DNA of 38,844 nt, from positions 59,581 to 98,424 of the forward strand of contig JASEGZ010000002.1 of NCBI GenBank assembly GCA_030018935.1, written 5' to 3'. Below the pieces are notes generated by a model, which saw only the letters and a program-made list of their open reading frames with translations, had not been told where the DNA came from and made no database searches. The DNA is from Syntrophales bacterium. Lineage in GTDB: Bacteria > Desulfobacterota > Syntrophia > Syntrophales > CG2-30-49-12. This document shows, piece after piece, positions 184 through 22,916 of this stretch. How positions within the stretch are numbered: position 1 is the first letter of the stretch; each line of letters opens with the position of its first letter. The translations under genes were made by a program, and so were the position numbers.

Positions 184-711
184 ATGGAACTAAAACGGGC
201 AGGGGAGATGATGATACCCCTGGATGAATATGTGAGTATTCCTTACTGGTTTACTCTCCGTCAGGCCATGGCGGAGATGGAAAAGGCGGAGGTCGTTAAG
301 GGTGGCCGAAAACACCCCCCACGCTTTATGCTTGTTTTCAATGAGAAATCCGAGCTTCTGGGGACAGTCCGGCGAAGGGATATCCTGCGCGGGCTGGAGC
401 CGGAGTTTCTCACGGGTCTGCTGATAGATGTGCGGAAAAAGCTGTTCGATGTGAAAGTGGATCCGAAGCTATCTAAGATACCCACCGACAAGCTGTGGAA
501 GGGCATTGAGGAACGGGCCGAACGTCCGGTAAGTGATGTGATGCGCCTTGTCAAGACGACGGTGGATTATGAAGACCACATCATAAAGGTTATCTACGAG
601 ATGGTGGACAGTAACATCAGTTTGCTGCCCGTCCTTAAGGACAAGGAGGTGGTTGGTGTAGTGCGTACCCTGGAGGTGTTCCACGAAATGGCCAGGCTTT
701 TGGTGAAGTAA
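184..711 (+). CDS. CBS-domain pair protein upstream of a sulfate permease
   Basis: A small soluble protein of 175 residues made almost only of two CBS repeats: one at about residues 7-75, ending in a GTVRRRDILRGLEP segment, and one at about 111-172. CBS pairs usually bind adenine nucleotides or similar ligands and gate partner enzymes or transporters. The start ATG has an AAGGAG ribosome site at 171-176. The gene lies 31 bp upstream of the SulP permease and is probably co-transcribed with it, so it may regulate that transporter in trans (inference). It is a paralogue of the CBS protein at 7712-8278: both open with an M-x-PL-[DE]-EY segment and share DILRGLEP, and both precede an anion transporter. 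Confidence 0.85.
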   Translation: MELKRAGEMMIPLDEYVSIPYWFTLRQAMAEMEKAEVVKGGRKHPPRFMLVFNEKSELLGTVRRRDILRGLEPEFLTGLLIDVRKKLFDVKVDPKLSKIPTDKLWKGIEERAERPVSDVMRLVKTTVDYEDHIIKVIYEMVDSNISLLPVLKDKEVVGVVRTLEVFHEMARLLVK

Positions 712-742: not shown

Positions 743-2911
743 ATGTGGACACGGATTTTCCCTTTCCTGAAATGGTTTGAGCGCTATAGCACCCCTGATC
801 TTCGTGCAGATCTAATTTCCGGTCTGACGGTTGCCCTTGTCTTAATCCCTCAATCCATGGCCTATGCCCAATTAGCTGGCCTGCCTGTTTACTATGGCCT
901 TTATGCAGCCTTCCTGCCACCCATGGTCGCCGCCCTGTTTGGTTCAAGCCACCAGCTTGCTACAGGACCGGTTGCCGTGGTTTCCCTGATGACGGCTACC
1001 GCCCTGGAGCCGCTGGCAACAGCAGGGGGTGAAGCTTTTATTGCCTACGCTATCTTTCTTGCCCTATTGGTGGGGATCTTTCAATTTGCCCTTGGTGTCC
1101 TCAGGCTCGGCCTGGTGGTTAATTTCCTCTCTCACCCCGTGGTAAACGGTTTTACCAATGCCGCAGCCCTTATCATTGCCTCGTCTCAGCTTGCAAAACT
1201 GTTCGGGGTTGAGGTGGACAATGCGGAACATCACTACGAAACCGTCCTTAATGCATGCAAAGCTGCCCTGGTTTCGACCCACTGGCCGACCATTGGATTG
1301 GCTGTCTTGGCCTTTGCCATTATGGTAGTTCTGAAACGCGTCAATCCGAGGATACCGAATGTACTGGTTGCCGTGGTGGTTACCACCCTGATTTCCTGGG
1401 CCGGCGGATTTGAGCATAGCTATAAGGGTGAGTTTGCCCTGATCGCCTCGCCTTACGTAAAGAAGACTATCGAAGAGTACAATGGTATCCTAAATAAAAT
1501 CGAGGAGGGGAACAGGGCGAGGATACCTCTGAACGATAAGATCGAAGATGCTAAGAATGCAAATGGTTCACACTCAGTTGCCGTCATGGAACTTAAGCAC
1601 CAGGTGGAGCTATTGAATCTCGAGATCGAGGGATTGAAAGAGAAGTCTCATGTATATCGCAGCAAGATGCGCGCCCTTGAGTTTGCCGCCGTGGAAGAAG
1701 GTAAGGGGAAACTGAAATTCTATACGGCGGGGGAATTACCGGCGGACTTAAAGACTGATGGGCGAAGATGGCGGCTTAAGGTGGGAAATCGCCGTCTGCA
1801 GGAGAAGGCTATTACTTTTGTCGGCGGTGGTTCTGTGGTGGGTGAAATCCCGAGGGGTCTTCCCGGTTTTACCCTGCCGAAGATCAATTTTACTGTCATG
1901 CTCAGTCTTTTTCCCATGGCGGCAATAATTTCCCTTCTCGGTTTTATGGAGGCGATCTCTATTGCCAAGGCCATGGCGGCAAGGACCGGCCAACGTCTGG
2001 ATCCCAATCAGGAATTGATCGGCCAGGGGTTAGCTAACATTATCGGGTCGCTTGGCCAAAGTTATCCGGTATCCGGTTCTTTCTCCCGATCTGCCGTGAA
2101 CATCCAGGCGGGTGCTGTGACCGGCATGTCGAGTGTATTTACCAGTGGCGTGGTCGTCATTGCCCTCTTGTTTTTCACACCGCTTTTGTACCACCTGCCC
2201 CAATCGGTCCTCGCCGCTATTATTATGATGGCGGTAGTAGGTTTGATAAATGTGCGGGGGTTTATCCATACCTGGCAGGCCCAGAGGTATGACGGTGTTA
2301 TTGCTGTTATCAGCTTCGTTGGCACTCTGATCTTTGCCCCGCATCTGGACAGGGGGATACTTATCGGCGTTGTACTGTCTATCGGCCTGTATCTGCTCAG
2401 AAATATGAGGCCGGACATGGCAATGCTGTCGAAATATACAGACGGTACCTATCGAAATGCCGCCCGTTTCGGTCTCGAACAGTGCAGGCATATCGCCGTA
2501 ATTCGCTTTAACAGTTCTTTATTTTTTGCTAATGTAAACTACCTCGAGGAAAGGGTGCTGGAAGAGGTAGCCTCTATGCCGGAGTTGAAACATGTTCTCA
2601 TTATCGGTCACGGCATCAACGAGCTTGACGCCTCCGGGGAGGAGATGCTCTCGTTACTTATAGGTAGACTGCGTGAAGCCGGCTACGATGTTTCCCTTGC
2701 CGGCTTGAATGATGCCGTTCTGGATGTGCTGAAGCGTACTCATCTGTATGAAAAGATTGGTGAAGATCACATATCTCATAGTATAGCCATGGCGATTGAG
2801 AGCATTCACGAATCGGCACACAGAGATTCACAGGAAAATGAATGTCCCTTGCTTACAGTGTGTTTCAAGGGGCTGCCTGTTTCAAAAAATGTCGTAAGTC
2901 ATAAGTCATAA
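743..2911 (+). CDS. SulP-family anion permease with STAS domain and a large soluble insert
   Basis: An inner-membrane transporter of 722 residues for sulfate or a similar anion (bicarbonate and dicarboxylates are alternatives within the family). The N-terminal SulP signature region (IPQSMAYAQLAGLP, about 35-48) and the conserved PVSGSFSRSAVN segment (about 442-453) are present. Hydrophobic helices cover about 20-222 and 380-552, and a cytoplasmic STAS domain follows at about 578-690, with the usual D-x-SG element (D630). Odd feature: residues about 224-362 form a charged, coiled-coil-like insert between two membrane halves, much longer than the short linker usual there. A GGAGG site at 726-730 precedes the ATG. 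The last residues (VVSHKS) and the TAA stop are encoded by an intergenic heptamer repeat. Confidence 0.9.
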   Translation: MWTRIFPFLKWFERYSTPDLRADLISGLTVALVLIPQSMAYAQLAGLPVYYGLYAAFLPPMVAALFGSSHQLATGPVAVVSLMTATALEPLATAGGEAFIAYAIFLALLVGIFQFALGVLRLGLVVNFLSHPVVNGFTNAAALIIASSQLAKLFGVEVDNAEHHYETVLNACKAALVSTHWPTIGLAVLAFAIMVVLKRVNPRIPNVLVAVVVTTLISWAGGFEHSYKGEFALIASPYVKKTIEEYNGILNKIEEGNRARIPLNDKIEDAKNANGSHSVAVMELKHQVELLNLEIEGLKEKSHVYRSKMRALEFAAVEEGKGKLKFYTAGELPADLKTDGRRWRLKVGNRRLQEKAITFVGGGSVVGEIPRGLPGFTLPKINFTVMLSLFPMAAIISLLGFMEAISIAKAMAARTGQRLDPNQELIGQGLANIIGSLGQSYPVSGSFSRSAVNIQAGAVTGMSSVFTSGVVVIALLFFTPLLYHLPQSVLAAIIMMAVVGLINVRGFIHTWQAQRYDGVIAVISFVGTLIFAPHLDRGILIGVVLSIGLYLLRNMRPDMAMLSKYTDGTYRNAARFGLEQCRHIAVIRFNSSLFFANVNYLEERVLEEVASMPELKHVLIIGHGINELDASGEEMLSLLIGRLREAGYDVSLAGLNDAVLDVLKRTHLYEKIGEDHISHSIAMAIESIHESAHRDSQENECPLLTVCFKGLPVSKNVVSHKS

Positions 2912-3030
2912 GTCGTAAGTCATAAGTCGTAAGTCGTAAGTCATAAGTCATAAGTCGAGGTAAGGGATGAAAGGGGGTTTTTATCAGTTATCTCAAAAAG
3001 ACATACGACATACGACATACGACATATGAC
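2891..3030. repeat. GTCRTAA heptamer array with inverted arm
   Basis: Nine head-to-tail copies of GTCATAA or GTCGTAA run from 2891 to 2953, plus GTCG. After a spacer of about 42 bp come four units of GACATAY at 3000-3030. The second arm is an imperfect inverse of the first, with about one mismatch per 7 bp, so the transcript could fold into a long hairpin. The first three units code the end of the SulP gene, including its stop. Similar arrays lie at 4291, 7105 and 16285. Confidence 0.9.
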
Positions 3031-3070: not shown

Positions 3071-4294
3071 ATGGCAATGATTACCATTTTTAGCGGGTCT
3101 TACTGCAGGGCAGATGAGGTGGCAAAAATGGTAGCCCAGAGGCTGGGCTACGGGTGCATCGGCGAAGAGCTTCTCGAGGAAACAGCAAAGCTTTATAATG
3201 TTTCCCAGGAGAGGCTCAAACGTGCCATGTACGGCCCCCCTTCGGTGTTTAGTAAATTTACCCATGAGAAGGTACGGAATGTTGCCTATGTCAAAGCGAT
3301 CCTTGCCCGGCACGTTAAGGAAAACAACATCGTTTATCATGGGTTTGCCGGCCATCTTTTACCGCGGGATATTACCCATATTTTAAAGGTATGTATTGTG
3401 GCCAGTCACGATTATAGGGCTGCCCAAGCTATGGAGAAGGAAGGGGTATCGGAAAAGGAGGCCCAGCGTATCATTAGAAAAGACGACAATGAGTGCCGTG
3501 AGTGGACTAAATATCTCTTTGGTCTTGGTCCGTGGGATACGAGTCTTTATGACATTAAGATTCCCATGCATGAAAGCTCTGTGGAAGAGGCCGGGAAAAT
3601 TATTTGTGACAATGTAACTAAAAAAGCCCTGGAGACGACACCAAAATCTCAGCAGGCGGCGGATGATTTCGTGCTGGCGGCACAGGTCAACGTCGCTCTT
3701 GCCGAGGGGGGTCATGAAGTTGAAGTATCCTGTAACAATGGTAATATTACCATCATGATAAATAAATATGTGTTGAGATTGGAGCACCTGGAAAAGGAAC
3801 TCTGGAGGATCGCCGGTACCGTTGCTGGAGTGAAAAGCGCCCATACCCGTGTGGGGCCTAAATTTGAACCCCCTGCCATCTATCCTCCCAAATTTGACTT
3901 TGAGCTGCCTTCAAGAATCCTCCTGGTAGACGATGAGAAAGAGTTTGTCCAGACCTTATCAGAACGATTACAGACGAGGCACATAGAGGCTGCGGTGGCC
4001 TATAATGGCGAGGAGGCACTATCGTTCGTGGAGAGTGAGGAACCTGAGGTCATGGTCCTCGATTTGAAGATGCCGGGCATTGATGGTATCGAGGTCCTCC
4101 GTCGGGTAAAGAGAGAACATCCCAATGTGGAGGTAATTATCCTGACCGGCCATGGCACGGAAAGGGAGGAGATACTGGCCAGAGAGCTCGGTGCCTTTGC
4201 TTATTTGAAAAAACCGGTGGATATTGATGTCCTATCTCAAACGATGAAAGAGGCCTATCGGAAGCTGAACCTGACTAAAAAACATAAAACATAA
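3071..4294 (+). CDS. cytidylate-kinase-like domain fused to a C-terminal response-regulator receiver
   Basis: A three-part cytoplasmic protein of 407 residues. Residues 1-190 resemble the cytidylate-kinase-like family (opening MITIFSGSY, then RLGYGCIGEELLEE). The phosphate-binding loop reads GSYCRADE, without the lysine of a classic Walker A, so kinase activity is doubtful. Residues about 200-262 look like a small BON-like alpha/beta module (tentative). Residues 281-400 are a complete receiver: acidic pair D287/D288, phospho-acceptor D331 in LDLKMPG, T359 and K381. Start ATG with AAGGAG at 3058-3063. It sits between the SulP gene and a Cache histidine kinase, the likely phosphodonor. The output is unknown: either the receiver controls the kinase-like domain or that domain is a ligand sensor. 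Confidence 0.75.
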   Translation: MAMITIFSGSYCRADEVAKMVAQRLGYGCIGEELLEETAKLYNVSQERLKRAMYGPPSVFSKFTHEKVRNVAYVKAILARHVKENNIVYHGFAGHLLPRDITHILKVCIVASHDYRAAQAMEKEGVSEKEAQRIIRKDDNECREWTKYLFGLGPWDTSLYDIKIPMHESSVEEAGKIICDNVTKKALETTPKSQQAADDFVLAAQVNVALAEGGHEVEVSCNNGNITIMINKYVLRLEHLEKELWRIAGTVAGVKSAHTRVGPKFEPPAIYPPKFDFELPSRILLVDDEKEFVQTLSERLQTRHIEAAVAYNGEEALSFVESEEPEVMVLDLKMPGIDGIEVLRRVKREHPNVEVIILTGHGTEREEILARELGAFAYLKKPVDIDVLSQTMKEAYRKLNLTKKHKT

Positions 4295-4343
4295 GTCATA
4301 AGACGTACGACGTACGACATACGACATACGACATACGACGTAA
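4291..4343. repeat. GACRTAC heptamer array (inverted-arm type)
   Basis: Starts with ATAAGTCATAA at 4291, then two GACGTAC, three GACATAC and one GACGTAA unit (4302-4343). The TAA stop of the preceding gene (4292-4294) is the first TAA of the array. The plus-oriented GTCRTAA arm is reduced here to one unit, so this copy is nearly all inverse arm. The next gene starts 21 bp later. Confidence 0.85.
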
Positions 4344-4364
4344 GAAGTAAGGGAGAGAAGGGGT

Positions 4365-6080
4365 TTGAAGTTTCTTCGCAGGATTATCCCTGATTATTGG
4401 GCTGATGAGGGTAAATCAGAGGGGGGGAGGTTCCGTTATCGCCGGTTGTGGAAGTATCTGGTTTCTCTTACCGCTTTAGTCTCTTTGGCTCCCCTTGTCA
4501 TCATGACTGCTGTTAATTACTATCAGTATCAAAAGGTGCTCAGGGTGGAGATGATCCACCCCATCTCCCAGCTTGCCTCCAACACCAAGCGGTCTCTGGA
4601 GTCTTTTATTGAAGAGCGCATCTCTGCTCTGAATCTTATTATCCATGATAAGTCATTCGAGGATATTGCCGATCAGAAAAGGTTCATTGCCGTCTTCAGG
4701 AACATGAAGAATTCCTTCGGTGGTTTTGTTGACCTCGGTCTTATTGATGCGGAGGGGTATCAGCGTTCCTACGTAGGGCCGTACGAACTTAAGGGAAAGA
4801 ACTACAAGGATCAGGACTGGTTTCACGAGGTCAGCCTGAGGGGCGTCTATGTGAGTGACGTTTTTATGGGATACCGGAATTTCCCCCATTTTGTAATTGC
4901 CGTCAAAAATGAAAGAGCTGGAGGGGACTTCTATGTGCTTCGAGCTACCGTAGATACGGAGACCCCGATTCGAAAGATCATCTCTCCTCTGGATTTAAGG
5001 CCTTCAACTGATGTCTTTCTCATCAATCGGAAGGGAATCCTTCAGACCTCTTCCCGATTCTATGGCAGGATTCTGGAGAAAATGAGCCTGGCGGTGCCTC
5101 CCTTTTCGTCAAGGACAGAGGTCCTGGAAGAACAGACGAGGGAAGGACAATCGTATATCCTGGGGTATGCCTACATTGAACGGACCCCCTTCATCCTGAT
5201 GATCGTCGCCCAACCTAAGGCACTCATGGAGAACTGGCTATCCGTGCGTCGTGATCTGGTCTGGTTCTTGATTGGCAGCATTGTTATCATTCTCCTGGTG
5301 ATTCTCTGGAGTTCAACCTACATGGTAAACCGTGTCCGGGAGGCGGATCTAAAGCGCGCTGCTCTCCTCCATAGTGTGGAATATACAAACAAGATGGCCT
5401 CTATCGGCCGCCTGGCCGCAGGGGTGGCCCATGAGATTAACAATCCGCTCGCCATTATCAATGAGAAGGCTGGTCTGGTGAAGGACATTGCCGCACTAAC
5501 AACAGAAGATTTTCCTCAAAGAGAAAAGATCATAAAACTTATTGAATCCATCCTTGTCAATGTGGAGCGATGCAGCACCATCACCCACCGCCTCCTGGGT
5601 TTTGCCAAGCGGATGGATGTGCACCTGGAAACGATTAACCTCGAGCTTCTCATCAAGGAGGTGCTCAGCTTCCTCGAAAAGGAGGCAACCTATCGAGACA
5701 TCTCGGTGAATTTTCATATACCGGAAAATTTTCCTTCTATTCAGAGTGATCGTGGTCAGCTTCAGCAGGTGTTTTTGAATATTATCAACAATGCCTTTGC
5801 TGCGGTGGAAGACAGGGGGAGAATAGACATTTCCATAAGGGAGGATAAGGATACCGTTGCCGTTACCATCAGCGATAACGGTCATGGCATTTCCGAGGAA
5901 GACCTTCAGCGTATCTTTGAGCCCTTCTTTACCACCAAGAAAGAGGGGGGAGTTGGATTGGGCCTTTCCATCACTTACGGTATCGTGGAAAAACTCGGAG
6001 GCCGCATCAGTGTTGAGAGTAAGGTGGGTCAGGGAACCAGTTTCACCGTTATTTTACCCGCCAAAAGGACCAGGTTTTAG
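4365..6080 (+). CDS. membrane histidine kinase, dCache sensor (paralogue 1)
   Basis: A sensor kinase of 571 residues. Order: TM1 about 31-50, periplasmic dCache-type sensor about 55-290 with the family block Y-x-GPY-x-L and SDVFMGYRNFPHF, TM2 about 299-321, then the HisKA domain with H356 in [11 protein letters not shown], and an HATPase domain with N-box (NIINNAF), G1 (SDNGHGI) and the FEPFFTTK/GLGLS boxes. There is no clear HAMP domain. The start is TTG, because no ATG lies ahead of TM1 and GGGAGAG lies at 4351-4357. The next gene is a receiver 9 bp downstream. Three close paralogues (14611, 17236, 21229) share the Cache block, so all four probably sense related small molecules. The ligand cannot be named. 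Confidence 0.9.
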   Translation: MKFLRRIIPDYWADEGKSEGGRFRYRRLWKYLVSLTALVSLAPLVIMTAVNYYQYQKVLRVEMIHPISQLASNTKRSLESFIEERISALNLIIHDKSFEDIADQKRFIAVFRNMKNSFGGFVDLGLIDAEGYQRSYVGPYELKGKNYKDQDWFHEVSLRGVYVSDVFMGYRNFPHFVIAVKNERAGGDFYVLRATVDTETPIRKIISPLDLRPSTDVFLINRKGILQTSSRFYGRILEKMSLAVPPFSSRTEVLEEQTREGQSYILGYAYIERTPFILMIVAQPKALMENWLSVRRDLVWFLIGSIVIILLVILWSSTYMVNRVREADLKRAALLHSVEYTNKMASIGRLAAGVAHEINNPLAIINEKAGLVKDIAALTTEDFPQREKIIKLIESILVNVERCSTITHRLLGFAKRMDVHLETINLELLIKEVLSFLEKEATYRDISVNFHIPENFPSIQSDRGQLQQVFLNIINNAFAAVEDRGRIDISIREDKDTVAVTISDNGHGISEEDLQRIFEPFFTTKKEGGVGLGLSITYGIVEKLGGRISVESKVGQGTSFTVILPAKRTRF

Positions 6081-6089
6081 GAGTGAAAT

Positions 6090-6455
6090 ATGGCAATTTT
6101 ACGGGTTTTGCTGATTGACGACGAAGAAGAGTTGGTTTTTACTCTGGCAGAGCGGCTGATACTCCGTGGCATTGAGGTTGAAGGTGTAACCAGTGGAGCT
6201 GATGCCATCAAGCGCGTCCAGGAGAAAAAATTTGATGTGGCGGTTCTGGATATGAAAATGCCGGGTATAGGGGGGTTGGAGGTGATGAAAAGGATCAGGA
6301 GAGAACGGGAGGGGATAAAGTTTATCCTCATGACCGGTCGGGGATCCCCCGAGGAGGGAGAGGAGGGGATACGAGAGGGAGCCTTTGCCTATCTCGTAAA
6401 GCCAATCAACATCGAGGATTTGATGGAGAAAATGATGGAGGCGGTAAGTGTCTGA
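6090..6455 (+). CDS. stand-alone receiver protein
   Basis: A receiver domain of 121 residues and nothing else. D10/D11 form the acidic pocket, D54 is the phospho-acceptor (VLDMKMPG), T82 and K104 complete the set. There is no DNA-binding or enzymatic output, so it must act by protein contact or as a phosphorelay intermediate. It follows the kinase at 4365 by 9 bp and overlaps the next gene by 8 bp, so the three are surely translated together. Confidence 0.9.
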   Translation: MAILRVLLIDDEEELVFTLAERLILRGIEVEGVTSGADAIKRVQEKKFDVAVLDMKMPGIGGLEVMKRIRREREGIKFILMTGRGSPEEGEEGIREGAFAYLVKPINIEDLMEKMMEAVSV

Positions 6456-7125
6456 AGAAAAACTTTTGCGGGAAAAGGGTCTGGCCTTCTTTGGAAGTAT
6501 TACGGCAAGTTTTTCTCATGAGATAAATAATGTCATGACCATTATCAATGAGCTTGCCGGTCTCATGGACGATCTCCTCCGGGTCGGGCAGCAGGGACAT
6601 CCGCCGCAACTTGAGAGGCTCAGAGGGATTTCCGAGAGGATCGGCACGCAGGTAAAACGGGGGGAGGAAATGATCAAACGCCTCAACCGTTTTGCCCATA
6701 CGCTGGATGAAACGGTGAAGACCATTGACCTGAGGGACCTTCTTGAGGATTTAATCGCCCTTTCGGAGCGTCCCCGTACCCTGAGAAGCGCCCGCCTGGA
6801 AACCCGATTTCCTGAAGAGACAATTTTATTGGTGAGCAGCCCCTTTCTCCTTCAGCAGGCTATCTTCTCCTGCATAGACCTAATTTTGGCCGCCTCCCCT
6901 GATAACCAGCTTCTCAGGTTGATTCTTGAAAAACAGGACGGTGGGGCAAGGATTACTATTGCCGGCGAAGACCCCATTGTCAAGACAGACGACGCTGCCC
7001 TGTCTTTCCTCCCGATTTTAATGGAAGAGCTGGGCGGAAAGGTAGAGGTTATCTCCACTGATAACGGCGGGCTTTCCCTGGTACTCTCCCTTCCTTATTC
7101 AATAGTCGTAAGTCGTATGTCATAA
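6448..7125 (+). CDS. short kinase-like protein with intact H-box but degenerate ATP site (candidate phosphotransferase)
   Basis: A soluble protein of 225 residues starting with GTG inside the preceding receiver gene. Residues about 15-95 form a dimerisation/histidine helix region with H24 in SFSHEINNV. Residues about 100-222 follow the histidine-kinase ATPase fold, but its key boxes are gone: the N-box position reads QAIFSCIDLI, with no asparagine, and the G1 position reads AGEDPIV instead of D-x-G-x-G. It probably cannot bind ATP. The combination (short, no sensor, DHp histidine, dead ATPase) is that of Spo0B or ChpT-type phosphotransferases, which shuttle phosphate between receivers. The alternative is a decaying kinase. 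It sits between two receivers. The last residues and the stop lie in a heptamer repeat. Confidence 0.75.
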   Translation: MSEEKLLREKGLAFFGSITASFSHEINNVMTIINELAGLMDDLLRVGQQGHPPQLERLRGISERIGTQVKRGEEMIKRLNRFAHTLDETVKTIDLRDLLEDLIALSERPRTLRSARLETRFPEETILLVSSPFLLQQAIFSCIDLILAASPDNQLLRLILEKQDGGARITIAGEDPIVKTDDAALSFLPILMEELGGKVEVISTDNGGLSLVLSLPYSIVVSRMS

Positions 7126-7175
7126 GTCATAAGTCATAAGTCATAAGTCGTAAGTCGGACGTATGACGTATGACG
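7105..7175. repeat. GTCRTAA heptamer array with short inverted arm
   Basis: GTCGTAA, GTCGTAT, four GTCATAA and GTCGTAA run from 7105 to 7153, then GTCG and two GACGTAT units plus GACG to about 7175. The first three units encode the C-terminus and TAA stop of the preceding gene. The next gene's ribosome site (AAGGAGG) follows at about 7190. Confidence 0.85.
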
Positions 7176-7203: not shown

Positions 7204-7692
7204 ATGCCGGATAAGATTAAACTATTGGTAGTTGATGATGAAAAACAGTTTCTGGAGACCATCTCCAAGCGCCTCAGCATGAGGGATTTCGATGTTACCC
7301 CGGTGAGTAGCGGGGAGGAGGCGATCGAGGCCGCGCGGAAACAGGAATTTGAAACTGCCCTTGTTGATCTGAAAATGCCCGGGATGGGGGGTGAGGAGGT
7401 TCTGGAGATATTGAAGAGGGAACACAGATTCATGGAAGTGGTTATCCTGACCGGGTATGGGTCAATTGATTCCGCTATCAAGTGCACTAAGGCTGGTGTC
7501 TATGGTTATCTGGAGAAACCATGCGAACTCGAAACGTTACTGAGTGTGTTGCGGGAGGCATATCAGAGACGCGTCCAGAACAAACTCAAGTTTAAGGATG
7601 AAAAGTTAAAAGAGATTGTCTCTGAGGTAGCGCCCGGCTCACCTCTCGAAATATTGAGGAAACTAAAGGAAATGGATAGAAAACTAAAGTGA
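7204..7692 (+). CDS. stand-alone receiver with C-terminal helical tail
   Basis: A receiver protein of 162 residues: D11/D12, phospho-acceptor D55 (LVDLKMPG), T83 and K105. A charged helical tail of about 45 residues (about 118-162) follows instead of an output domain; it may be a dimerisation or docking segment. ATG start with AAGGAGG at 7190-7196. It is followed by the second CBS protein 19 bp downstream. Confidence 0.88.
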   Translation: MPDKIKLLVVDDEKQFLETISKRLSMRDFDVTPVSSGEEAIEAARKQEFETALVDLKMPGMGGEEVLEILKREHRFMEVVILTGYGSIDSAIKCTKAGVYGYLEKPCELETLLSVLREAYQRRVQNKLKFKDEKLKEIVSEVAPGSPLEILRKLKEMDRKLK

Positions 7693-7711: not shown

Positions 7712-8278
7712 ATGGAAGAGAAGCATGTGAGAGATATTATGGTTCCCCTGGAAGAATACGCTGTAGTCTCTCAGGAGGCAACGATCAAGGAAGCATTGAA
7801 GGTTATGAAAGAGAGTTCCGAGAGACTCTCACCGGGAAAATACAGGCATCTGGGGATACTGGTTAAGGATGCGGAGGGGAATATCGTGGGAAAACTCACC
7901 CAGGCCGATATCTTGAGAGGTCTCGAGCCTGATTACAAGGACATCGGTGGTTCGTATCTCTCCCCCCTGATGCGGGCGAAGATGGCCGATATTATGACCC
8001 ACATCCCGGATAAAACCTTCCTGGAACGTTGCAAGGCCCAGAAAGACAAAAAAGTGCGGGATTTCATGACCACTGTAGCCCTGTCCGTGGACGTAAACGA
8101 AGTCCTGGGCCATGCCCTTCACATCATGCTCATCAGTGAACATATAGGGCTTCTGGTTGTCGGAGAGGGGAAGAAACCGGTGGGGATACTGAGACTGACC
8201 GACATCTACCAGCTTGTGAAAGAGGCCATTCTGGAGGAACAATACAAAGAGGAGATTCAAGATGACGTACGAGGATAA
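7712..8278 (+). CDS. CBS-domain pair protein overlapping an anion transporter gene
   Basis: A protein of 188 residues with two CBS repeats (about 5-72 and 112-178), separated by a linker of about 40 residues. It is a paralogue of the CBS protein at 184-711 (shared PLEEY opening and DILRGLEP). The gene overlaps the DASS-type transporter by 17 bp, so translation is coupled. The repeated order CBS gene then anion-transporter gene suggests that it gates or senses for the transporter. The ligand is probably an adenine nucleotide by family knowledge. It could also act on the kinases. Confidence 0.85.
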   Translation: MEEKHVRDIMVPLEEYAVVSQEATIKEALKVMKESSERLSPGKYRHLGILVKDAEGNIVGKLTQADILRGLEPDYKDIGGSYLSPLMRAKMADIMTHIPDKTFLERCKAQKDKKVRDFMTTVALSVDVNEVLGHALHIMLISEHIGLLVVGEGKKPVGILRLTDIYQLVKEAILEEQYKEEIQDDVRG

Positions 8279-9611
8279 AACAGACAAAATCAAGTTCGAC
8301 TGGAAGAGGATATTTTTTATCTTATTGGGATTGGGACTTTTCTTTTACGTTTATTTCTCCCCCCCCTGGAGTGACGCCATTGACCCCCTGGGCAAGGCGT
8401 TCCCTCTGTCGAAGGAGGGGAAGGCATCCATTGCCCTTTTCTTGCTTGCCGGTACCTGGTGGGTCTTTGAGGTAGTGCCCATTGGTTTGACAAGTATAGC
8501 TATTGGCGTCTTTCAGGCGCTCTTCGCGATCCGCCCCGCAAAGGACGCCTTCCGGGACTTCATGGATCCGGCGGTGATGTTCATCTTCGGTTCTGTAGTC
8601 GTCGGTCTTGCCTTCACAAAGACGGGACTGACGAGACGTCTTGCTTATAAGATGTTAGAAATAGTGGGGGAAAGGACAAGCATGATACTATTAGGGGTAT
8701 GCCTTATGAGTGCCGGGCTTCCCCTCTTTATGGCCCATACGGCCGCTGCGGCTACTGTATTTCCTATCCTGATGACGATCTATGCTTTGTATGGTGAAGG
8801 GGATAGACCGACAAGATTCGGTAAGGCCCTCTTTATCGGTATGGCCTATTCCGCTGGGGCGGGGAGTATTATTACCATGTTAGGTGCAGCGAGAGCGCCT
8901 GCGGCAGCGAGTATGTTTAAGGAATTTACCGGCAGGGAGATCGGTTTCTTTGAGCTTACCAAATATATGTTCCCGATAGGGATAGTCATGGTCATTCTAA
9001 TATGGATTATTTTAATGATCTTCCTGATGCCTGAGAAGAAGACCATTGTCGGTCTTAAGGAACAGGTGAAGAGTCTCTCCTCTGAACTTGGCCCGATGAG
9101 GTGGGAGGAGAAGTTTGTCATCCTCTGTGTGATAGGGGTAGTAATCACCCTGTCCCTCCAGTCCTTCGTCCCTGCCTTAAAGCTCCTGGACAGGTCTGCC
9201 ATCATGCTGGTGTCAACCCTTCTTTTCTTTATATTCGGGGTACTTACGGTTAAGGAACTCGAGGAGATACCCTGGAATATCATTCTGCTGTTCAGCGGCG
9301 CCATGAGCATAGGTTTCTGTCTCTGGAAGACAGGGGGAGCGCAGTGGCTGGCCATCAACTGGCTTACCATATTCAAGGAGGCGCACTGGGCGATATTCGT
9401 GTTAGGTATTGCCTTTTTTGTGTTGGTCATGACCAATTTCATCATGAATGTAGCGGCAATTGCCATCTCTCTCCCTATCGCCCTGGTAACGGCAGGTTAT
9501 CTTCATGTTGCGCCGGAGGTGGTGCTCTATGCCTCTCTGGTCACCGCAGGTATGCCGTTCCTGTTATTGATCGGCGCTGCGCCGAATGCCATCGCCTATG
9601 CCTCAGGGTAA
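8262..9611 (+). CDS. DASS/SLC13-type anion transporter, interrupted by in-frame TAA near the 3' end
   Basis: A multi-helix inner-membrane permease of 449 residues up to the stop, of the divalent anion:sodium symporter type (dicarboxylate, sulfate or similar). Two repeat halves are visible, each with a re-entrant signature: MAHTAAAATVFPI (about 154-166) and MTNFIMNVAAIAISLPIA (about 390-407). The reading frame does not end naturally: after NAIAYASG a TAA at 9609-9611 is followed in frame by FTGGEFFKYGI and one more hydrophobic helix up to 9731. In the family a tyrosine normally stands there. The gene is therefore truncated by one codon change, or the base is a sequencing error. GAGGAGA at about 8249 serves the ATG. 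Confidence 0.85.
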   Translation: MTYEDKTDKIKFDWKRIFFILLGLGLFFYVYFSPPWSDAIDPLGKAFPLSKEGKASIALFLLAGTWWVFEVVPIGLTSIAIGVFQALFAIRPAKDAFRDFMDPAVMFIFGSVVVGLAFTKTGLTRRLAYKMLEIVGERTSMILLGVCLMSAGLPLFMAHTAAAATVFPILMTIYALYGEGDRPTRFGKALFIGMAYSAGAGSIITMLGAARAPAAASMFKEFTGREIGFFELTKYMFPIGIVMVILIWIILMIFLMPEKKTIVGLKEQVKSLSSELGPMRWEEKFVILCVIGVVITLSLQSFVPALKLLDRSAIMLVSTLLFFIFGVLTVKELEEIPWNIILLFSGAMSIGFCLWKTGGAQWLAINWLTIFKEAHWAIFVLGIAFFVLVMTNFIMNVAAIAISLPIALVTAGYLHVAPEVVLYASLVTAGMPFLLLIGAAPNAIAYASG

Positions 9612-14200: not shown

Positions 14201-14614
14201 GTGGAATTGGAACGGTTTACGAGGGATGTCCCGGTAATTCTGATTGCCGATGATGATCCTGTGATTCTTCATACCTTGAGCAAGTTTTTTTCCAAGGAAG
14301 GTTACCGGATCATCCTGGCCCATAATGGTCAGGAGGCCCTCTACGTTCTGAAAGAAAAGGAACCGGATCTCCTCATCCTTGATGTTAGGATGCCGTTGAA
14401 ATCGGGGGTTGAGGTGATTAAGGAGATGGCCGGTGGGGGTATGATGATTCCCGTGATAGTCATGACGGCCTATTCAAATGCCTTTACCCTCTCAGATGCG
14501 GAGGTCTGGGGAGTAAGGGGATACTTTCAAAAACCTTTTGATGTGGAGGAAATGAACATACTGGTGAGAAAGATCCTTTTTTCACCGAACGGCAAAAATG
14601 GTAGTGGTTCATGA
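14201..14614 (+). CDS. stand-alone receiver protein
   Basis: A receiver-only protein of 137 residues: D17/D18/D19, phospho-acceptor D61 (LILDVRMP), T90 and K111. There is no output domain. The start is ambiguous: GTG at 14201 or TTG at 14207, with AGGAG at 14193-14197; spacing favours the second slightly. Its stop overlaps the ATG of the kinase at 14611 (ATGA), so they form a coupled pair with the receiver first, the reverse of the order at 4365-6455. Confidence 0.88.
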   Translation: MELERFTRDVPVILIADDDPVILHTLSKFFSKEGYRIILAHNGQEALYVLKEKEPDLLILDVRMPLKSGVEVIKEMAGGGMMIPVIVMTAYSNAFTLSDAEVWGVRGYFQKPFDVEEMNILVRKILFSPNGKNGSGS

Positions 14615-16290
14615 AGAGAGAGAAGACGGAAAATGCCCATTACTACCGATTATTGACCAGAAACCTGATTTTAACAGTCATCCTTGTTTCCTTAGCCCCT
14701 CTGCTCCTGGTCAGCGGAACGATACTCTATCATTTTCAGGTATCATACCGTGAAAAGGCGATTGCCCACCTGGAGGAGGTGGTAGAGAAACACAGGCAGA
14801 ATATTGACAGCTTTTTAAACGGAAAACTGGCCGATATCAGGGTCATGGGAAGCTCTTATACCTTTGAGCAATTGAGCAATGAGTCCTTTCTGCAGGAGAG
14901 GTTGTCCATACGGCAGAGGGAATATGGCGGCGTGTTTGTGGATCTGGGTCTGGTGGATGACCGGGGGGTTCAGATCGCCTATGCGGGAACATTTAAGTTG
15001 GGGAGAGCCGTATATTCAGAGGCCGACTGGTTTAAAAAGGCCATGAAGAGCCGGTATTTTATCAGCGACGTCTTTTTAGGTCTCCGTGGTCTGCCCCATT
15101 TCATCGTTGCCACCAGACAGGAATGGCAGTCAAGGGAGTGGATCTTAAGGGCCACCATTGATTTTGTTACCTTTAATTCTCTGGTCGAAAACATACAGAT
15201 AGGTGAAACGGGTCTGGCCTTTATTTTGAATAGGAAGGGCGAATTTCAAACAAAACCTCGAGCAGATGCAACCTTAAACAGGGATCTCTATCGGGACTTT
15301 CTGACAGAGAAGATAGACAGGGTAAAGGTTGTTGAGAAGGCCGATAGTTCGGGCAGAGAATTCATCTATGTTCTGGCCCCCCTTAAAAAGGGGGACTGGA
15401 TACTGGTCTATCAGCAGGATGCACGGGACGCCTTTTCAGTCGTGTATGGGACACGAAGGCTGGCGATAACTATCCTTTTGTTGGGAGGTATCGGCATCGT
15501 TATCATGGCCTTTGTGTTGTCGAATAGGGTGGTCAATCGCGTTGCCCGGGCCGACCGTGAGAAGGAAATGATGAGCGAGCAGGTCATTGAAGCCGGTAAG
15601 TTGGCCTCCTTAGGTGAACTTGCCGCCGGCATAGCCCATGAAATCAATAACCCGGTAGCCATCATGGTTGAGGAAGCAGGATGGATGGAGGATTTGTTAG
15701 GAGAAGGAGAATTACAGAAAAGTGAAAACCTCGATGAATTTGAACGTTCCTTGAAACAGATAAGGACTCAGGGGATACGCTGCAAGGGGATCACCCATAA
15801 ACTGTTGAGTTTCGCCAGAAGGACGGATGCCGAGGTCCATGACGTGCAGTTAAACGACTTGATTACAGAAGTCGTGGGACTTTCTGAACAGAGGGCGAAA
15901 TACAGCAATGTGAAGATCCAGACCCGTTTGGCAGGCGATTTGCCGACCGTAACTGTTTCCCCGTCGGAAATGCAGCAGGTCTTTCTTAATCTGATCAATA
16001 ATTCCCTCGACGCCATGGATAAGGAAGGGGGGAGAATTGATATCACGAGCAGAGTTGACGGCAATTATCTCGTCGTTGATGTGGCTGATACGGGTCATGG
16101 TATCCCCAAATCCTACCTTCCCAGGATATTTGACCCCTTTTTTACCACAAAGCCGGTAGGGAAGGGAACCGGCTTGGGACTATCTATAGTTTACGGCATT
16201 ATCGAGAAAATGGGAGGGGAGATAAGTGTGAACAGCGCCGTGGGTGTGGGCGCCACTTTTCATATCCGTATCCCCCTTCCTCAAACATAA
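14611..16290 (+). CDS. membrane histidine kinase, dCache sensor (paralogue 2)
   Basis: A kinase of 559 residues: TM1 about 18-41, dCache about 45-280 with YAGTFKLG and ISDVFLGLRGLPHF, TM2 about 284-305, H343 in [12 protein letters not shown]-box NLINNSLDA, G1 ADTGHGI, and [13 protein letters not shown]. In the Cache block this copy has AGTF where its paralogues have [VI]GPY, so its ligand preference may differ. It is coupled to the receiver upstream and ends exactly at a heptamer array, whose leading ACATAA supplies the stop. The next gene is again a receiver. Confidence 0.92.
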   Translation: MKREKTENAHYYRLLTRNLILTVILVSLAPLLLVSGTILYHFQVSYREKAIAHLEEVVEKHRQNIDSFLNGKLADIRVMGSSYTFEQLSNESFLQERLSIRQREYGGVFVDLGLVDDRGVQIAYAGTFKLGRAVYSEADWFKKAMKSRYFISDVFLGLRGLPHFIVATRQEWQSREWILRATIDFVTFNSLVENIQIGETGLAFILNRKGEFQTKPRADATLNRDLYRDFLTEKIDRVKVVEKADSSGREFIYVLAPLKKGDWILVYQQDARDAFSVVYGTRRLAITILLLGGIGIVIMAFVLSNRVVNRVARADREKEMMSEQVIEAGKLASLGELAAGIAHEINNPVAIMVEEAGWMEDLLGEGELQKSENLDEFERSLKQIRTQGIRCKGITHKLLSFARRTDAEVHDVQLNDLITEVVGLSEQRAKYSNVKIQTRLAGDLPTVTVSPSEMQQVFLNLINNSLDAMDKEGGRIDITSRVDGNYLVVDVADTGHGIPKSYLPRIFDPFFTTKPVGKGTGLGLSIVYGIIEKMGGEISVNSAVGVGATFHIRIPLPQT

Positions 16291-16384
16291 GTCATAAGTC
16301 ATAAGTCGTAAGTCATAAGTCATAAGTCATAAGTCATAAGTCATAAGTCAAAAGACATATGACATATGACATATGACATACGAC
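16285..16384. repeat. longest GTCRTAA heptamer array, inverted arms without spacer
   Basis: ACATAA, then nine units of GTCATAA/GTCGTAA (the ninth is GTCAAAA) at 16291-16353, directly followed by four GACATAY units to 16384. The two arms meet without a spacer, so this copy could form a compact stem. The TAA at 16288-16290 is the stop of the kinase gene. The array ends 24 bp before the likely start of the next receiver. Confidence 0.92.
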
Positions 16385-16407
16385 TGATGTTTTCCGGGGT
16401 AAGGCAA

Positions 16408-16809
16408 ATGACTCAAGAGGGGGAAAAACAGACCGAGCGCATAAAACTTCTCCTTGTGGATGATGAGGAGGGGTATGTGAATGTCCTTGCGAGAAGAATG
16501 GCGAAAAGAAACTTTGAGGTAACGCCAGCTCTAAGTGGAACGGAGGCGATAGAGGCTCTCCGCAGGCAGGATTTCGATGTAGCTGTTCTGGATCTGAAGA
16601 TGGAGGACATGGATGGTATCGAGGTTTTAAAGATATTTAAAAAGATGTGTCCCTCTATGGTGGTGATCATGCTTACAGGCCACGGTTCCGAGCAAGCCGC
16701 CAGGGATGGCCTGTCTCTGGGGGCATTTGCCTATCTCACCAAACCCTGCGATCTCGATGATCTTGTCAATAAGATCAGGCATGCCTGTAGAAGAGAAGGA
16801 GGTGGGTGA
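16408..16809 (+). CDS. stand-alone receiver protein
   Basis: A receiver of about 133 residues: D18/D19, phospho-acceptor D62 (VLDLKMED, with MED in place of the usual MPG), T89-region threonine (MLTGHG) and the lysine of TKPCD. ATG 16408 is preferred because GGGGTAAGG lies just upstream; the frame is open further upstream but enters the heptamer repeat. Another receiver starts 1 bp after its stop, so two receivers stand in tandem between two kinases. Confidence 0.85.
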   Translation: MTQEGEKQTERIKLLLVDDEEGYVNVLARRMAKRNFEVTPALSGTEAIEALRRQDFDVAVLDLKMEDMDGIEVLKIFKKMCPSMVVIMLTGHGSEQAARDGLSLGAFAYLTKPCDLDDLVNKIRHACRREGGG

Positions 16810-16810
16810 G

Positions 16811-17236
16811 GTGGATGAATTCAGCGTCCTTCTGGTAGACGACGAGAGAGAATTTTTAGAGACATTGATCAAAAGGCTGCAAAAGCGAAAGTTAAAGGTA
16901 AGAGGGGTTACCAGCGGTGAAGAGGCCCTTAAGATCCTGAAAGAGATGTCGCCGGACGTGGTGGTCCTGGATGTAAGGATGGAGGGTATGGACGGCATAC
17001 AGACCTTGCGGGAAATCAAAAAGGCGAGCCCTCTCGTGGAGGTGATTATGCTTACAGGACATGCCAATCTGGAAGTCGCCGTGGAGGGGATGGAATTAGG
17101 GGCCTTTGATTATCTGATGAAACCGATGGATATTGACGAGTTATTGTATAAACTTGAGGATGCCTATAAGAGAAAAACGATCCAGGAACAGAAGATAAAA
17201 CACCTGGAAGAGGGCAGGGAATTGGAAGGGGTTTAA
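16811..17236 (+). CDS. stand-alone receiver with C-terminal helical tail
   Basis: A receiver of about 141 residues: D10/D11, D54 (VLDVRMEG), T81-region threonine (MLTGHAN) and the lysine of MKPMD. The GTG start at 16811 fits AAGGAGG at 16796-16802 and follows the previous stop by 1 bp. The tail (QEQKIKHLEEGRELEGV) resembles that of the receiver at 18990 (QEQKIRSAKIQEL). Its TAA shares a base with the next kinase's ATG. Confidence 0.87.
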   Translation: MDEFSVLLVDDEREFLETLIKRLQKRKLKVRGVTSGEEALKILKEMSPDVVVLDVRMEGMDGIQTLREIKKASPLVEVIMLTGHANLEVAVEGMELGAFDYLMKPMDIDELLYKLEDAYKRKTIQEQKIKHLEEGRELEGV

Positions 17237-18900
17237 TGATGAAAAGACGCATGTATGCAAACCTCCAGAGGAGGATCATCTTCATTACCCTGCTGGTTTC
17301 TTTCATACCCCTCATCTCTCTCGGTGTGACGATCTATTACCAATTTGCCCAGATGTACAGGGATAAGATTGAAGAACAGATTAAATACCGTGCCAGGGCC
17401 CAGAGTAACGCCATAGAGCTTTTTTTAAAGGAACGCACCGCCATTCTTCTGGCCATGGCCGACACGCATACTTTTGATTATTTAGTAGATGAGGGCAACT
17501 TAGAGAGGGTCTTTCAGATAATGAATCATCGAGCCGGCGGTTTCATTGATCTTGGCTTGATTGACAGCAGCGGCCGGCATGTCGCCTATGTAGGCCCTTA
17601 CAACCTTCTTGGTCGGGACTATTCTTCGCAACCATGGTTCGATGAGGTTGAAAGTAAAGGCCTTTACATCAGTGACGTCTTTATGGGTTACAGGAGGATA
17701 CCTCATTTTATCATCGCTGTTCAACGCCAGGAAAACAACAGGCGCTGGATACTGAGAGCAACAATAGACTCTGATGTTTTTGAGGGTCTCATCCGGGCGG
17801 CGCAGGTGGGAAAAACAGGAGATGCTTTTATCATCAACAAAGGCGGCTTCTATCAAACGCACCTGCGTTTTGATGGTGAAATTCTCTCTAAATCAAACCT
17901 GGATCCCACGGTCTTTGGAGAGGGGACGACGGTCCTGGAAAAGGTGAACAGAGAGGGGAAAAAGGAACTCTATGCAGGAAGCTGGTTGAAAAAACATAGC
18001 TGGCTTTTAGTGATCAGCCAGGATGTGTCGGAAGAGATGACGAGACTGTTTAAAACGAAAAGGATAGAGATTGTTATCATTGTCTCTGGTTGTTTGCTGA
18101 TCATTCTGACGACTATCTTTACCACCCATCTGATTGTCAGGCGTTTAGGAATGGCCGATCGGAAGATGAATGAACTGAATGTACAACTCGTCCATGCCGA
18201 CAAACTGGCTGCCCTCGGTAAGATGGCGGCCGGTGTTGCCCATGAGATCAACAATCCCCTCGCCGTGATTGCCGAAAAAACCGGCTGGATGGAGGATCTC
18301 CTGATAGAGGAGGAGTTTCAGAAGAGTCGGCACCTTGAGGAGTATAGAAAATCACTCAGGAAGATAGAGGAACACGTGGAGAGGGCAAGAAAGGTAACCC
18401 ATGGGATGCTTGGATTTGCCCGGAGGATGGAGCCTCACCTGGAGGATGTGGACATAAACGAGGTCTTGCATGAGACGATAACTTTTCTGGAGAGTTATGC
18501 CCGGCTAAACAACATTACCATAGAAAGAGACTTAAAGCCTGATCTGCCCATCATCGCCAGTGACCACGCCCAGCTCCAGCAGGTGTTCTTGAACCTGATA
18601 ACCAATGCCATTGATGCGATAGGTAAGGATGGATTGGTTTACATAAGCAGCCAGAGGATCAATTCCGAGATAGCCGTCAGCGTAAAAGACAATGGCCCCG
18701 GTATTCCCAGAGAATATCAGGCAAGGGCCTTTGAACCTTTTTTCACTACCAAAGAGAGAGGAAAAGGGACGGGGCTTGGTTTGTCGGTCAGTTATAATAT
18801 TGTCCAGAATATGGGAGGGACTATCACCCTCGAGAGCGAGGAAGGGAAAGGGACAACATTCACCGTGGGGTTACCCGTTGTTGTCCCGGAAAAGAAGTAG
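17236..18900 (+). CDS. membrane histidine kinase, dCache sensor (paralogue 3)
   Basis: A kinase of 554 residues: TM1 about 13-36, dCache about 40-275 with AYVGPYNLLG and ISDVFMGYRRIPHF, TM2 about 278-298, H336 in [12 protein letters not shown]-box NLITNAIDA, G1 KDNGPGI, and FEPFFTTK/GLGLS. It is coupled to the receiver upstream by a TAATG overlap. Its TAG stop lies inside a 28-bp perfect palindrome. By its Cache block it is closest to paralogues 1 and 4. Confidence 0.92.
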   Translation: MMKRRMYANLQRRIIFITLLVSFIPLISLGVTIYYQFAQMYRDKIEEQIKYRARAQSNAIELFLKERTAILLAMADTHTFDYLVDEGNLERVFQIMNHRAGGFIDLGLIDSSGRHVAYVGPYNLLGRDYSSQPWFDEVESKGLYISDVFMGYRRIPHFIIAVQRQENNRRWILRATIDSDVFEGLIRAAQVGKTGDAFIINKGGFYQTHLRFDGEILSKSNLDPTVFGEGTTVLEKVNREGKKELYAGSWLKKHSWLLVISQDVSEEMTRLFKTKRIEIVIIVSGCLLIILTTIFTTHLIVRRLGMADRKMNELNVQLVHADKLAALGKMAAGVAHEINNPLAVIAEKTGWMEDLLIEEEFQKSRHLEEYRKSLRKIEEHVERARKVTHGMLGFARRMEPHLEDVDINEVLHETITFLESYARLNNITIERDLKPDLPIIASDHAQLQQVFLNLITNAIDAIGKDGLVYISSQRINSEIAVSVKDNGPGIPREYQARAFEPFFTTKERGKGTGLGLSVSYNIVQNMGGTITLESEEGKGTTFTVGLPVVVPEKK

Positions 18901-18924
18901 GGGCACGTTGCAACGTGCCCCTAC
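18897..18924. repeat. 28-bp perfect palindrome
   Basis: GTAGGGGCACGTTG followed directly by its exact reverse complement. It overlaps the stop codon of the kinase gene. It has no poly-T tail, so a terminator role is not supported; it looks like a dispersed palindromic repeat. Confidence 0.9.
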
Positions 18925-18941
18925 CATGGTAAAGATAAAAT

Positions 18942-18976
18942 GTAACGCAACCTTCAGGTTGTGTGAATTGCGTAAA
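18942..18976. repeat. second palindrome (ACGCAA/TTGCGT with inner CAACCT/AGGTTG stem)
   Basis: An ACGCAA...TTGCGT outer stem and an inner CAACCT/AGGTTG hairpin lie just after the 28-bp palindrome and just before the ribosome site of the next receiver. They could fold in the leader of that gene. Confidence 0.6.
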
Positions 18977-18989
18977 TAAGGAGGTTACG

Positions 18990-19454
18990 ATGGACACCTT
19001 CCGGGTTTTGGTCGTAGATGATGAGGCAGATTTTTTAGAAACTATCGTCAATCGTTTGCAGAAAAGGAAAGTTGAGGCAACAGGCGTTCCCAGCGGGGAG
19101 GCTGCCCTGGAGCTGATGAAGGGAAGGCTCTTCGATGTTGTTCTGCTGGACATCAAGATGCCGGGCGGTATGGATGGCATCGAGGTCTTAAGAGAAATCA
19201 AGAAGATGCAGCCTTTGACCGAGGTGATTCTCCTTACCGGACATGCCTCGGTGGAAACGAGTATCGAGGGGTTGAAGTTAGGCGCCTTTGATTACCTGAT
19301 AAAACCGGTAAAATTTGATGAACTCCTGGAGAAACTGGCCGCCGCTTTTGAAAAGAAGAATGCCCAGGAACAGAAAATTCGCAGCGCAAAGATACAGGAG
19401 TTGATCCGCTTTCCCGGTCGCATATTTGATCAGGAGAGGGAGGAAAAGGAGTAA
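18990..19454 (+). CDS. stand-alone receiver with C-terminal helical tail
   Basis: A receiver of 154 residues: D10/D11, D54 (LLDIKMPG), the LTGHAS threonine and the lysine of IKPVK, then a charged tail of about 35 residues. ATG 18990 has AAGGAGG at 18978-18984; an upstream in-frame GTG at 18963 has none. It leads into the second DASS-type transporter 45 bp downstream, so receiver and transporter are probably co-transcribed. Confidence 0.88.
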   Translation: MDTFRVLVVDDEADFLETIVNRLQKRKVEATGVPSGEAALELMKGRLFDVVLLDIKMPGGMDGIEVLREIKKMQPLTEVILLTGHASVETSIEGLKLGAFDYLIKPVKFDELLEKLAAAFEKKNAQEQKIRSAKIQELIRFPGRIFDQEREEKE

Positions 19455-19499
19455 TTCTCCCTCCGCAAAAAAATTGATAATTCGACAGGAGGTTAGTGT

Positions 19500-21188: not shown

Positions 21189-21228
21189 GAGGGGACTCTC
21201 TGTTGTGTTTGGGTAAAGGATGGGCGTG

Positions 21229-22899
21229 ATGGCTGATGAGGGGAAAAACTCCTATCTTGGTTTGCGCCGATATATCGTTATTATTCTGTGTGCGGCAGCG
21301 GCTATTCCCCTCGGGCTCATAGGTGGCACCATCTATTACCAGTATCGTAACTCGATTAGCGAGAGGGTAACCACGCAACTTACGTCTATCGTGAGGGAAC
21401 ACAAAGAGGCAATAGAGAAGTTTCTCCAGGAGGTAACCTCTGCCATGAGGGTGGTTACACAACTTAAAACTCTGAATGATCTGAGGAATAGGGATGTGCT
21501 GCAGAAGGTATTTGATTCCCTGCAAAGAGAGTACGATCATGCCTTTGAGGACCTGGGGGTTATAGACGCACAGGGGAATCATCTGGCCTATATAGGACCC
21601 TATGATCTACTGGGGAAGAATTACCGCGGCGCCGCCTGGTTCAAAGAGACCATGGAAAAGGAGGTATTTATAAGCGACGTGTTCCTCGGGTTCCGCCAGG
21701 TACCCCACTTCATCGCTGCCGTCAAGAAGGGGAAGGGGAGAGAGGCATGGATACTGAGGGCTACAATCAACGCTGCCAGATTTAGTTCTCTGGTGGAAAA
21801 TGTGCGTCTGGGACGCACGGGGGAGGCCTTTATCGTGAGCAGTGAGGGGTTCTACCAGACCCAGAGCAGGATAGGCAACCGGATCATGGAAAGGGCGCCG
21901 CCGGGTTCTTTTGATCTGACGGACTTTGCTGGTGTCAAGTTTTGGGAGGTTATGGGGAAAAATGGTAGAAAGGTCTTGCGGGCCAAAACGTGGATGAAGA
22001 ACGGACATTGGCTATTGATTGTCCAGCAGGATGACGATGATGCCTTCTCTGAACTTTATGCCACGAGAAACAGAGCCATTGCGGTGTTTATCTTCGGTGC
22101 CCTCGTGATTGGCATGGTGACCTTTCTTACCACGAGACTTCTCGTCCGGAAGATTGAGAGGATTGATAGAGAGAAGAATATCCTTGATGAGCAACTGATC
22201 CAGTCGAGCAAGCTTGCCTCTATCGGTGAGCTTTCTGCGGGAATTGCTCACGAGATTAACAACCCTCTGGCCATCATCGGTGAAGAGGCAGGGTGGATGC
22301 AGGATCTTTTGCGGCGTCCTGGTCTCAAGGAGTTGGAAGGGATAGGCGAGTTCAGGGATTCCCTCCGTGAAATCTGCCAGCAGGCGGGCCGCTGCAGGGA
22401 AATTACCCACAAATTACTGAGCTTTGCCCGCAAGATGGAGTCGGTTGTCAAAGATGTGGAGCTGAACAGGTTAATTGAAGAGGTGGTCAGCATGCGGGAG
22501 CGGGAAGCCTCCCTTAACAACATAAAATTTGTCAAGAATTACCAGAAGGATTTACCCTTGATTTACAGTGACCCTTCCCTGTTACGGCAGGTGTTTTTGA
22601 ACCTGATCAATAATGCCATAGATGCCTTGCAAAAAGGTGGCGAGATAAAGATTGAGACTGTCCTTGACGGGGAAAACCCTGTGGAGGTCAAGATCGGTGA
22701 TACCGGTGTGGGGATACCCAGAGAGAATCTGAAAAAAATCTTTGATCCTTTCTTTACAACCAAGGCCCCGGGAAAGGGGACCGGTCTGGGGCTTTCCATC
22801 TGCCACGGGATCATGGAAAAGTTAGGAGGGAGAATTTCTGTGACTTCGCAGGTGGGTGAGGGGACGGTATTTACCGTTTATCTTCCAAGAGAACATTAG
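21229..22899 (+). CDS. membrane histidine kinase, dCache sensor (paralogue 4)
   Basis: A kinase of about 556 residues: TM1 about 14-36, dCache about 40-275 with [10 protein letters not shown] and [16 protein letters not shown]2 about 284-304, H342 in [12 protein letters not shown]-box [10 protein letters not shown]1 GDTGVGI, and [16 protein letters not shown] 21229 is preferred over ATG 21220, because AAAGGA abuts the earlier codon but lies 8 bp from the later one. It follows the intact DASS-type transporter by about 40 bp and is followed by a receiver 17 bp on. Confidence 0.92.
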
Positions 22900-22916
22900 A
22901 AAGGAGTGAGGTTGCC

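Follow-up and report, generated by a model that had tools for sequence, protein, structure and literature searches.

The 225-aa protein encoded between two receiver genes of a Syntrophales bacterium is probably a dimeric DHp-type histidine phosphotransferase working in a kinase-receiver relay; judging from its sequence, it descends from a sensor kinase whose ATP site has disappeared while the histidine that carries the phosphate was retained. It belongs to a family that is found in many sulfate-reducing bacteria, often beside sulfate transporter genes, and that was previously unnamed, and we found no earlier description of it in the literature searched. The gene lies in a window of 38,844 nucleotides (the whole stretch of DNA analyzed here), which is part of contig C2 of a 2.07-Mb genome with Syntrophaceae bacterium CG2_30_49_12 as its close relative. 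The features discussed below are collected in Table 1.

Table 1. Features of the gene cluster and of the candidate phosphotransferase (positions in the window)
Feature	Positions	Strand	Basis
CBS-domain protein heading the cluster	184-711	+	Pfam CBS; syntenic in relative L009
SulP-type sulfate permease carrying a STAS domain; the module's first transporter	743-2911	+	Pfam Sulfate_transp, STAS
Cytidylate-kinase-like protein ending in a receiver domain (CK2+REC), possible output	3071-4294	+	Pfam
dCache membrane histidine kinase with both DHp and ATPase domains complete; proposed as the source of phosphate	4365-6080	+	Pfam dCache_1, HisKA, HATPase_c
Receiver 1, REC only, 121 aa, proposed relay intermediate	6090-6455	+	Pfam Response_reg
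Standalone DHp-type histidine phosphotransferase candidate, 225 aa	6448-7125	+	ORF; 94-member family; AlphaFold2 model pLDDT 91.6, pTM 0.84
DHp hairpin of two helices (first at residues ∼3-48, second at ∼55-85)	6454-6702	+	AlphaFold2 secondary structure; HisKA profile match 19-83
H24, phospho-acceptor His of the HEINN box	6517-6519	+	H in 94/94 members
N28, H+4 of the ExxN motif	6529-6531	+	N in 94/94 members
N80, clade-specific, for Leu of kinases	6685-6687	+	N in 89/94 members, L in 46/46 kinases
H84, clade-specific second invariant His, for Arg/Lys of kinases	6697-6699	+	H in 94/94 members, R in 41 and K in 5 of 46 kinases
CA-like alpha/beta domain lacking the ATP lid and the N, D, and G boxes	6703-7113	+	Motif comparison; AlphaFold2 model
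Receiver 2, REC with C-terminal extension, proposed acceptor	7204-7692	+	Pfam Response_reg
CBS-domain protein after receiver 2	7712-8278	+	Pfam CBS
SLC13/DASS-type sodium:sulfate or dicarboxylate symporter	8262-9611	+	Pfam Na_sulph_symp

A kinase-like fold without an ATP site

The ORF begins with GTG and overlaps the stop end of receiver 1 by 8 nucleotides, and receiver 2 begins 78 bases past its stop codon. Pfam returned for the protein only a sub-threshold match to HisKA (16.9 bits, E of 0.0065, below the curated cut-off) and no match to HATPase_c, while the Hpt profile matched neither the window protein nor 27 members of its family. AlphaFold2, run as a single chain on the family alignment, predicts with the scores listed in Table 1 a kinase-like DHp hairpin (helices 2-47 and 54-84, with Met excluded from the numbering) followed by an alpha/beta CA-like domain in which the lid segment is missing. 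This combination of a two-helix hairpin and an alpha/beta domain is unlike the single-chain four-helix bundle of monomeric HPt proteins. In a fold search, the nearest solved structures were the DHp-CA portions of histidine kinases, with HK853 in first place (E of 2e-12); neither Spo0B nor ChpT was among the 50 solved-fold matches listed, and the sequence-profile search likewise did not return them. There is no room for a sensor because DHp helix 1 starts at residue 2-3, in agreement with the preliminary description of a sensorless protein of this length.

An ancient family with an altered active site

In a draw of 395 genomes from the phylum, at least 59 carried a match at E ≤ 1e-16, a lower bound obtained with seven candidates scored per genome, and nearly all of these matches were short standalone ORFs of ∼213 to 360 codons. 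Class-wide profile searches found the family in 42/85, 4/8, and 93/258 genomes. Within the order to which the window belongs it is confined to the window's own genus (2 of 155 genomes at E ≤ 1e-20), and a pattern search of named genomes, with a reach of close relatives only, gave one locus. The fetched loci yielded 94 distinct members, standalone homologues from dozens of genera of the phylum. A 360-aa homologue in L074, considered as an intermediate with a kinase/ATPase domain, belongs to the family and owes its length to a spurious N-terminal extension, and a 251-aa ORF on contig C45 is an ordinary kinase located where the contig ends. In-frame TGA codons were flagged in some homologues; in the four read (L132, L137, L138, and L139), they are ordinary gene ends and not selenocysteine.

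The Glu/Asp at H+1 is kept in all 94 members, and so are the histidine of the HEINN box (H24), whose retention had been pointed out beforehand, and the asparagine at H+4 (N28); the conservation of the latter two rules out a chance motif. In the window protein, the positions of the N-box, D-box, G1, F, and G2 motifs, which the 46 neighboring dCache kinases have intact (43/46 for the F box), are absent or replaced, and across the family those of the N-box, D-box, G1, and G2 are likewise replaced or deleted; this bears out the earlier report that the N-box asparagine and the D-x-G-x-G of the ATP site are gone; even as a loose string, D-x-G-x-G occurs in 5/94 members versus 46/46 kinases. At the profile level, HisKA was matched by 25 of 27 members (E ≤ 1), and HATPase_c gave 2 weak matches among the 27. 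The proline at H+5, present in every one of the 46 dCache kinases of these loci, is found in none of the 94 members, and at the end of helix 2 a leucine has become asparagine (N80, 89/94) and an arginine or lysine has become histidine (H84, 94/94). From the helix lengths we estimate that N80 should lie opposite H24 across the hairpin, with H84 one turn above.

A tree built by a quick search, without bootstrap, from 33 family members and 35 kinases places the family in one group (SH-aLRT of 100) and the operon kinases in another (97). Since the family is one clade apart from the kinases, a single loss of the ATP site is the simplest explanation. On these sequence comparisons, the family represents a distinct ATP-less branch derived from HisKA kinases. 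The dN/dS of the 225-aa gene is ∼0.26, compared to 0.10 to 0.18 for its neighbors, in a single comparison with the sole close relative (90% identical); the gene is therefore under purifying selection.

Gene order and a proposed relay

The order CBS-SulP-CK2/REC-kinase-REC-phosphotransferase is syntenic in the close relative. Across the 94 family loci, a receiver lies directly upstream of the phosphotransferase gene in 92 and directly downstream in 84, and a kinase lies upstream in 89; of the 10 loci that lack the downstream one, six are short or lie at a contig end. The position between two receivers that had drawn attention to this gene is therefore an arrangement conserved across dozens of genera. 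Within 8 kb in the 40 larger family loci we found CK2+REC in 28, SulP in 22, and either SulP or SLC13 in 30, co-occurrence counts that are not independent because all of these genes are inherited together. Active-site residues are preserved in the receivers of most loci. Each element of the receiver 1 site (acidic pair, Asp, Thr/Ser, and Lys) is present in no fewer than 91 of its 92 orthologues, and the phospho-acceptor Asp of receiver 2 is intact in 79 of 84, the active site being lost in ∼5 of the 84 loci.

As far as sequence can tell, the 225-aa protein most likely passes phosphate between the two small receivers. From gene order, conserved residues, and predicted fold we infer the phosphotransfer, its direction, dimerization, and a transporter as the output, in the following scheme. 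The dCache kinase would autophosphorylate with ATP, receiver 1 would accept its phosphate and phosphorylate H24, and H24 would hand the phosphate on to receiver 2 and probably also to the receiver of the cytidylate-kinase-like protein, in a flow that may be reversible. The CA-like domain would contribute to docking or to the shape of the dimer and not to ATP binding, and the relay would most likely tune sulfate uptake via the linked SulP or SLC13 transporter. The kinase as the donor, and the CK2-like receiver protein and the SulP transporter as outputs, are two probable points that go beyond the preliminary description.

The residues expected to govern docking are consistent with this scheme. 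In HK853, the positions A268, A271, and T275 (named in PDB titles) lie at H+8, H+11, and H+15 from H260 and are kinase positions that set receiver choice. These are I/V, E, and L in the operon kinases and likewise in the phosphotransferase family; the window's three other dCache kinases instead carry W at H+15. The SulP-fused receiver, the CK2 receiver, and receivers 1 and 2 mostly have an acidic-F/L-x-R pattern on helix 1, from which the NtrC receivers in the same loci differ. This pattern fits the use of one docking surface along the whole putative relay, and shared interfaces have been described for the CckA-ChpT-CtrA relay (PMC9981736). Mutual information between the family and the receivers gave lineage noise only and singled out neither receiver as the partner.

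The stretch of the window at 14201-23348 holds three more dCache kinases, several single receivers, and an SLC13 transporter. Many of the receivers there have similar docking residues, and cross-talk within a larger network is therefore possible.

Comparison with known phosphotransferases

To our knowledge, few kinase-derived phosphotransferases have been described, namely, Spo0B, ChpT, and PhyT. The candidate resembles Spo0B of Bacillus subtilis, a cytosolic DHp-type phosphotransferase that links a single-domain receiver to a regulator further along the pathway and has an ATP-less C-terminal domain of kinase ancestry. However, the window operon encodes its own kinase and both receivers, N80 and H84 mark a different end of helix 2, and the Pfam model SPOB_a matched 0 of 27 members and nothing in the window's genome, with a positive B. 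subtilis control.

ChpT of Caulobacter crescentus and Brucella shares with the candidate the DHp hairpin, an atypical Bergerat fold that does not use ATP, and a similar size, and it serves several acceptors from one donor, as proposed here (PMC3433190, PMC9981736). It differs in having a proline at H+5 (PMC9981736), which is missing from 94/94 members of the window family, and in receiving phosphate from a hybrid kinase, whereas the proposed donor for the window protein is a separate receiver. The ChpT model HPTransfase (PF10090) matched 0 of 27 members; its sole hit in the window's genome was weak and fell on a 645-aa kinase ORF, and the Caulobacter control was positive. The assignment as Spo0B/ChpT-type made in the preliminary description is supported, with a correction: the testable signs of a DHp-type phosphotransferase are all present, but the protein matches neither Pfam model. 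Since both models went unmatched, we consider the working similar and the origin probably independent.

PhyT (PhyP) of Sphingomonas melonis is the third precedent: a degenerate kinase, it takes phosphate from the single-domain receiver SdrG and relays it to a second receiver (PMC5898713). It is membrane anchored and has an HRxxN box and, putatively, a sensor in the periplasm, whereas the window protein has neither membrane nor sensor part and carries an HExxN box. The dCache kinases of the operon (4365-6080 and its orthologues) have the same DHp type and the same residues at H+8, H+11, and H+15 as the family, but they retain a whole ATP site, the H+5 proline, and an Arg/Lys at the H84 position and form a separate clade.

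Other roles for the protein

Because ExxN is retained, the main rival to a relay is a receiver phosphatase or phosphate sink, which would dock phosphorylated receivers and drain the phosphate of the dCache kinase, shutting the pathway off instead of passing a signal on. In kinases, the Glu at H+1 and the Asn at H+4 serve phosphatase activity, and the acid and the Asn are kept in all 94 members. A pure ExxN phosphatase would not necessarily need the histidine, though, and H24 is invariant; two flanking receivers are also almost always present. The degenerate DHp protein PhyP/PhyT was initially taken for a phosphatase as well, but on testing it proved to be a phosphotransferase with undetectable phosphatase activity (PMC5898713). 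Taken together, we regard a phosphatase as unlikely.

It is improbable that the protein is a pseudokinase modulating the dCache kinase as its pairing partner, in which case H24 would carry no phosphate in the cell. RetS pairs with GacS in this way, DivL and RetS are among the distant profile or fold matches, and the gene sits beside that of a kinase. However, H24 is invariant in 94/94 members, the DHp regions of family and kinase form distinct clades with differing helix-2 ends, and DivL is named a tyrosine kinase in the fold-match listing, while the 225-aa protein retains its histidine. In another reading, the ATPase domain of the dCache kinase would phosphorylate H24 in trans, and the protein would be an extra acceptor of a split kinase instead of a relay step after a receiver. 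The kinase gene lies two genes upstream and its box is close to HEINN, but the family has lost the H+5 proline of 46/46 kinases in 94/94 members and has an altered helix-2 end near H24, which suggests that contact with a kinase domain is no longer selected and makes this reading very improbable. A decaying, functionless kinase fragment, for which the lost ATP site could speak and which had been named beforehand as the finding in relatives that would count against a phosphotransferase, is practically negligible given the dN/dS value, a single ancient loss common to dozens of genera, and the strict conservation of motifs.

A link to sulfate reduction

The presence of the family follows that of dsrA. 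A dsrA match above the cut-off was found in 55 of 58 family genomes versus 132 of 337 others in the phylum draw (Fisher p of 1.4e-16, with kinship ignored); the 58 exclude one of the 59 genomes above, G492, in which a full-length kinase gave the match. The three family genomes without dsrA are incomplete assemblies (62 to 80% complete). In the window's own genome, dsrA (G000:C2:36655-37914) is located on the window's contig, ∼22 kb ahead of the window, although no dsrA was seen in many of the genomes sampled from this order.

A physical connection between receiver and transporter is seen in SulP-STAS-REC fusions identified by Pfam in two genomes of one genus (L062, 447-2981 on the plus strand, and L063, 10255-12813 on the minus strand); a third SulP-receiver fusion, in L077, was found with a custom profile and is cut by the contig end. 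By its domain composition, such a transporter is itself a response regulator. We can extend the relay model to a separate ATP-less phosphotransferase lineage, native to sulfate reducers, with a relay that ends on SulP: phosphate reaching a receiver fused to or docked on the STAS end would open or close sulfate uptake, and N80 and H84 would form a re-tooled active site beside H24. This extended version is speculative, and we put it forward only tentatively.

A comparative survey of sulfate-reducer sulfate transporters reports, citing Stahlmann 1991, that high sulfate shuts off high-affinity sulfate uptake, and it mentions neither a histidine kinase nor a response regulator (PMC5840216). The gene cluster is a concrete candidate for the regulation of sulfate uptake in sulfate reducers. 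A further ancient and widespread family also suggests that relays can arise repeatedly from kinases that lose the ATP site.

Other features of the window

Two PEP-synthase-like proteins are encoded at 28800-31421 and 33874-36477, the first with PPDK_N and a mobile phosphohistidine domain (Pfam). A further receiver lies near them at 36480-36878, and genes of this kind also neighbor the relay in several other genomes.

A 7-base unit (GTCATAA and variants) forms arrays between genes of the cluster at 2891-2957, 3000-3030, 4282-4345, 7104-7157, and 16286-16384, and some of these arrays have an inverted counterpart. The array that follows the phosphotransferase gene reaches into its 3' end, where it encodes the final residues of the protein, and it is probably recent because it is missing at that place in the relative L009.
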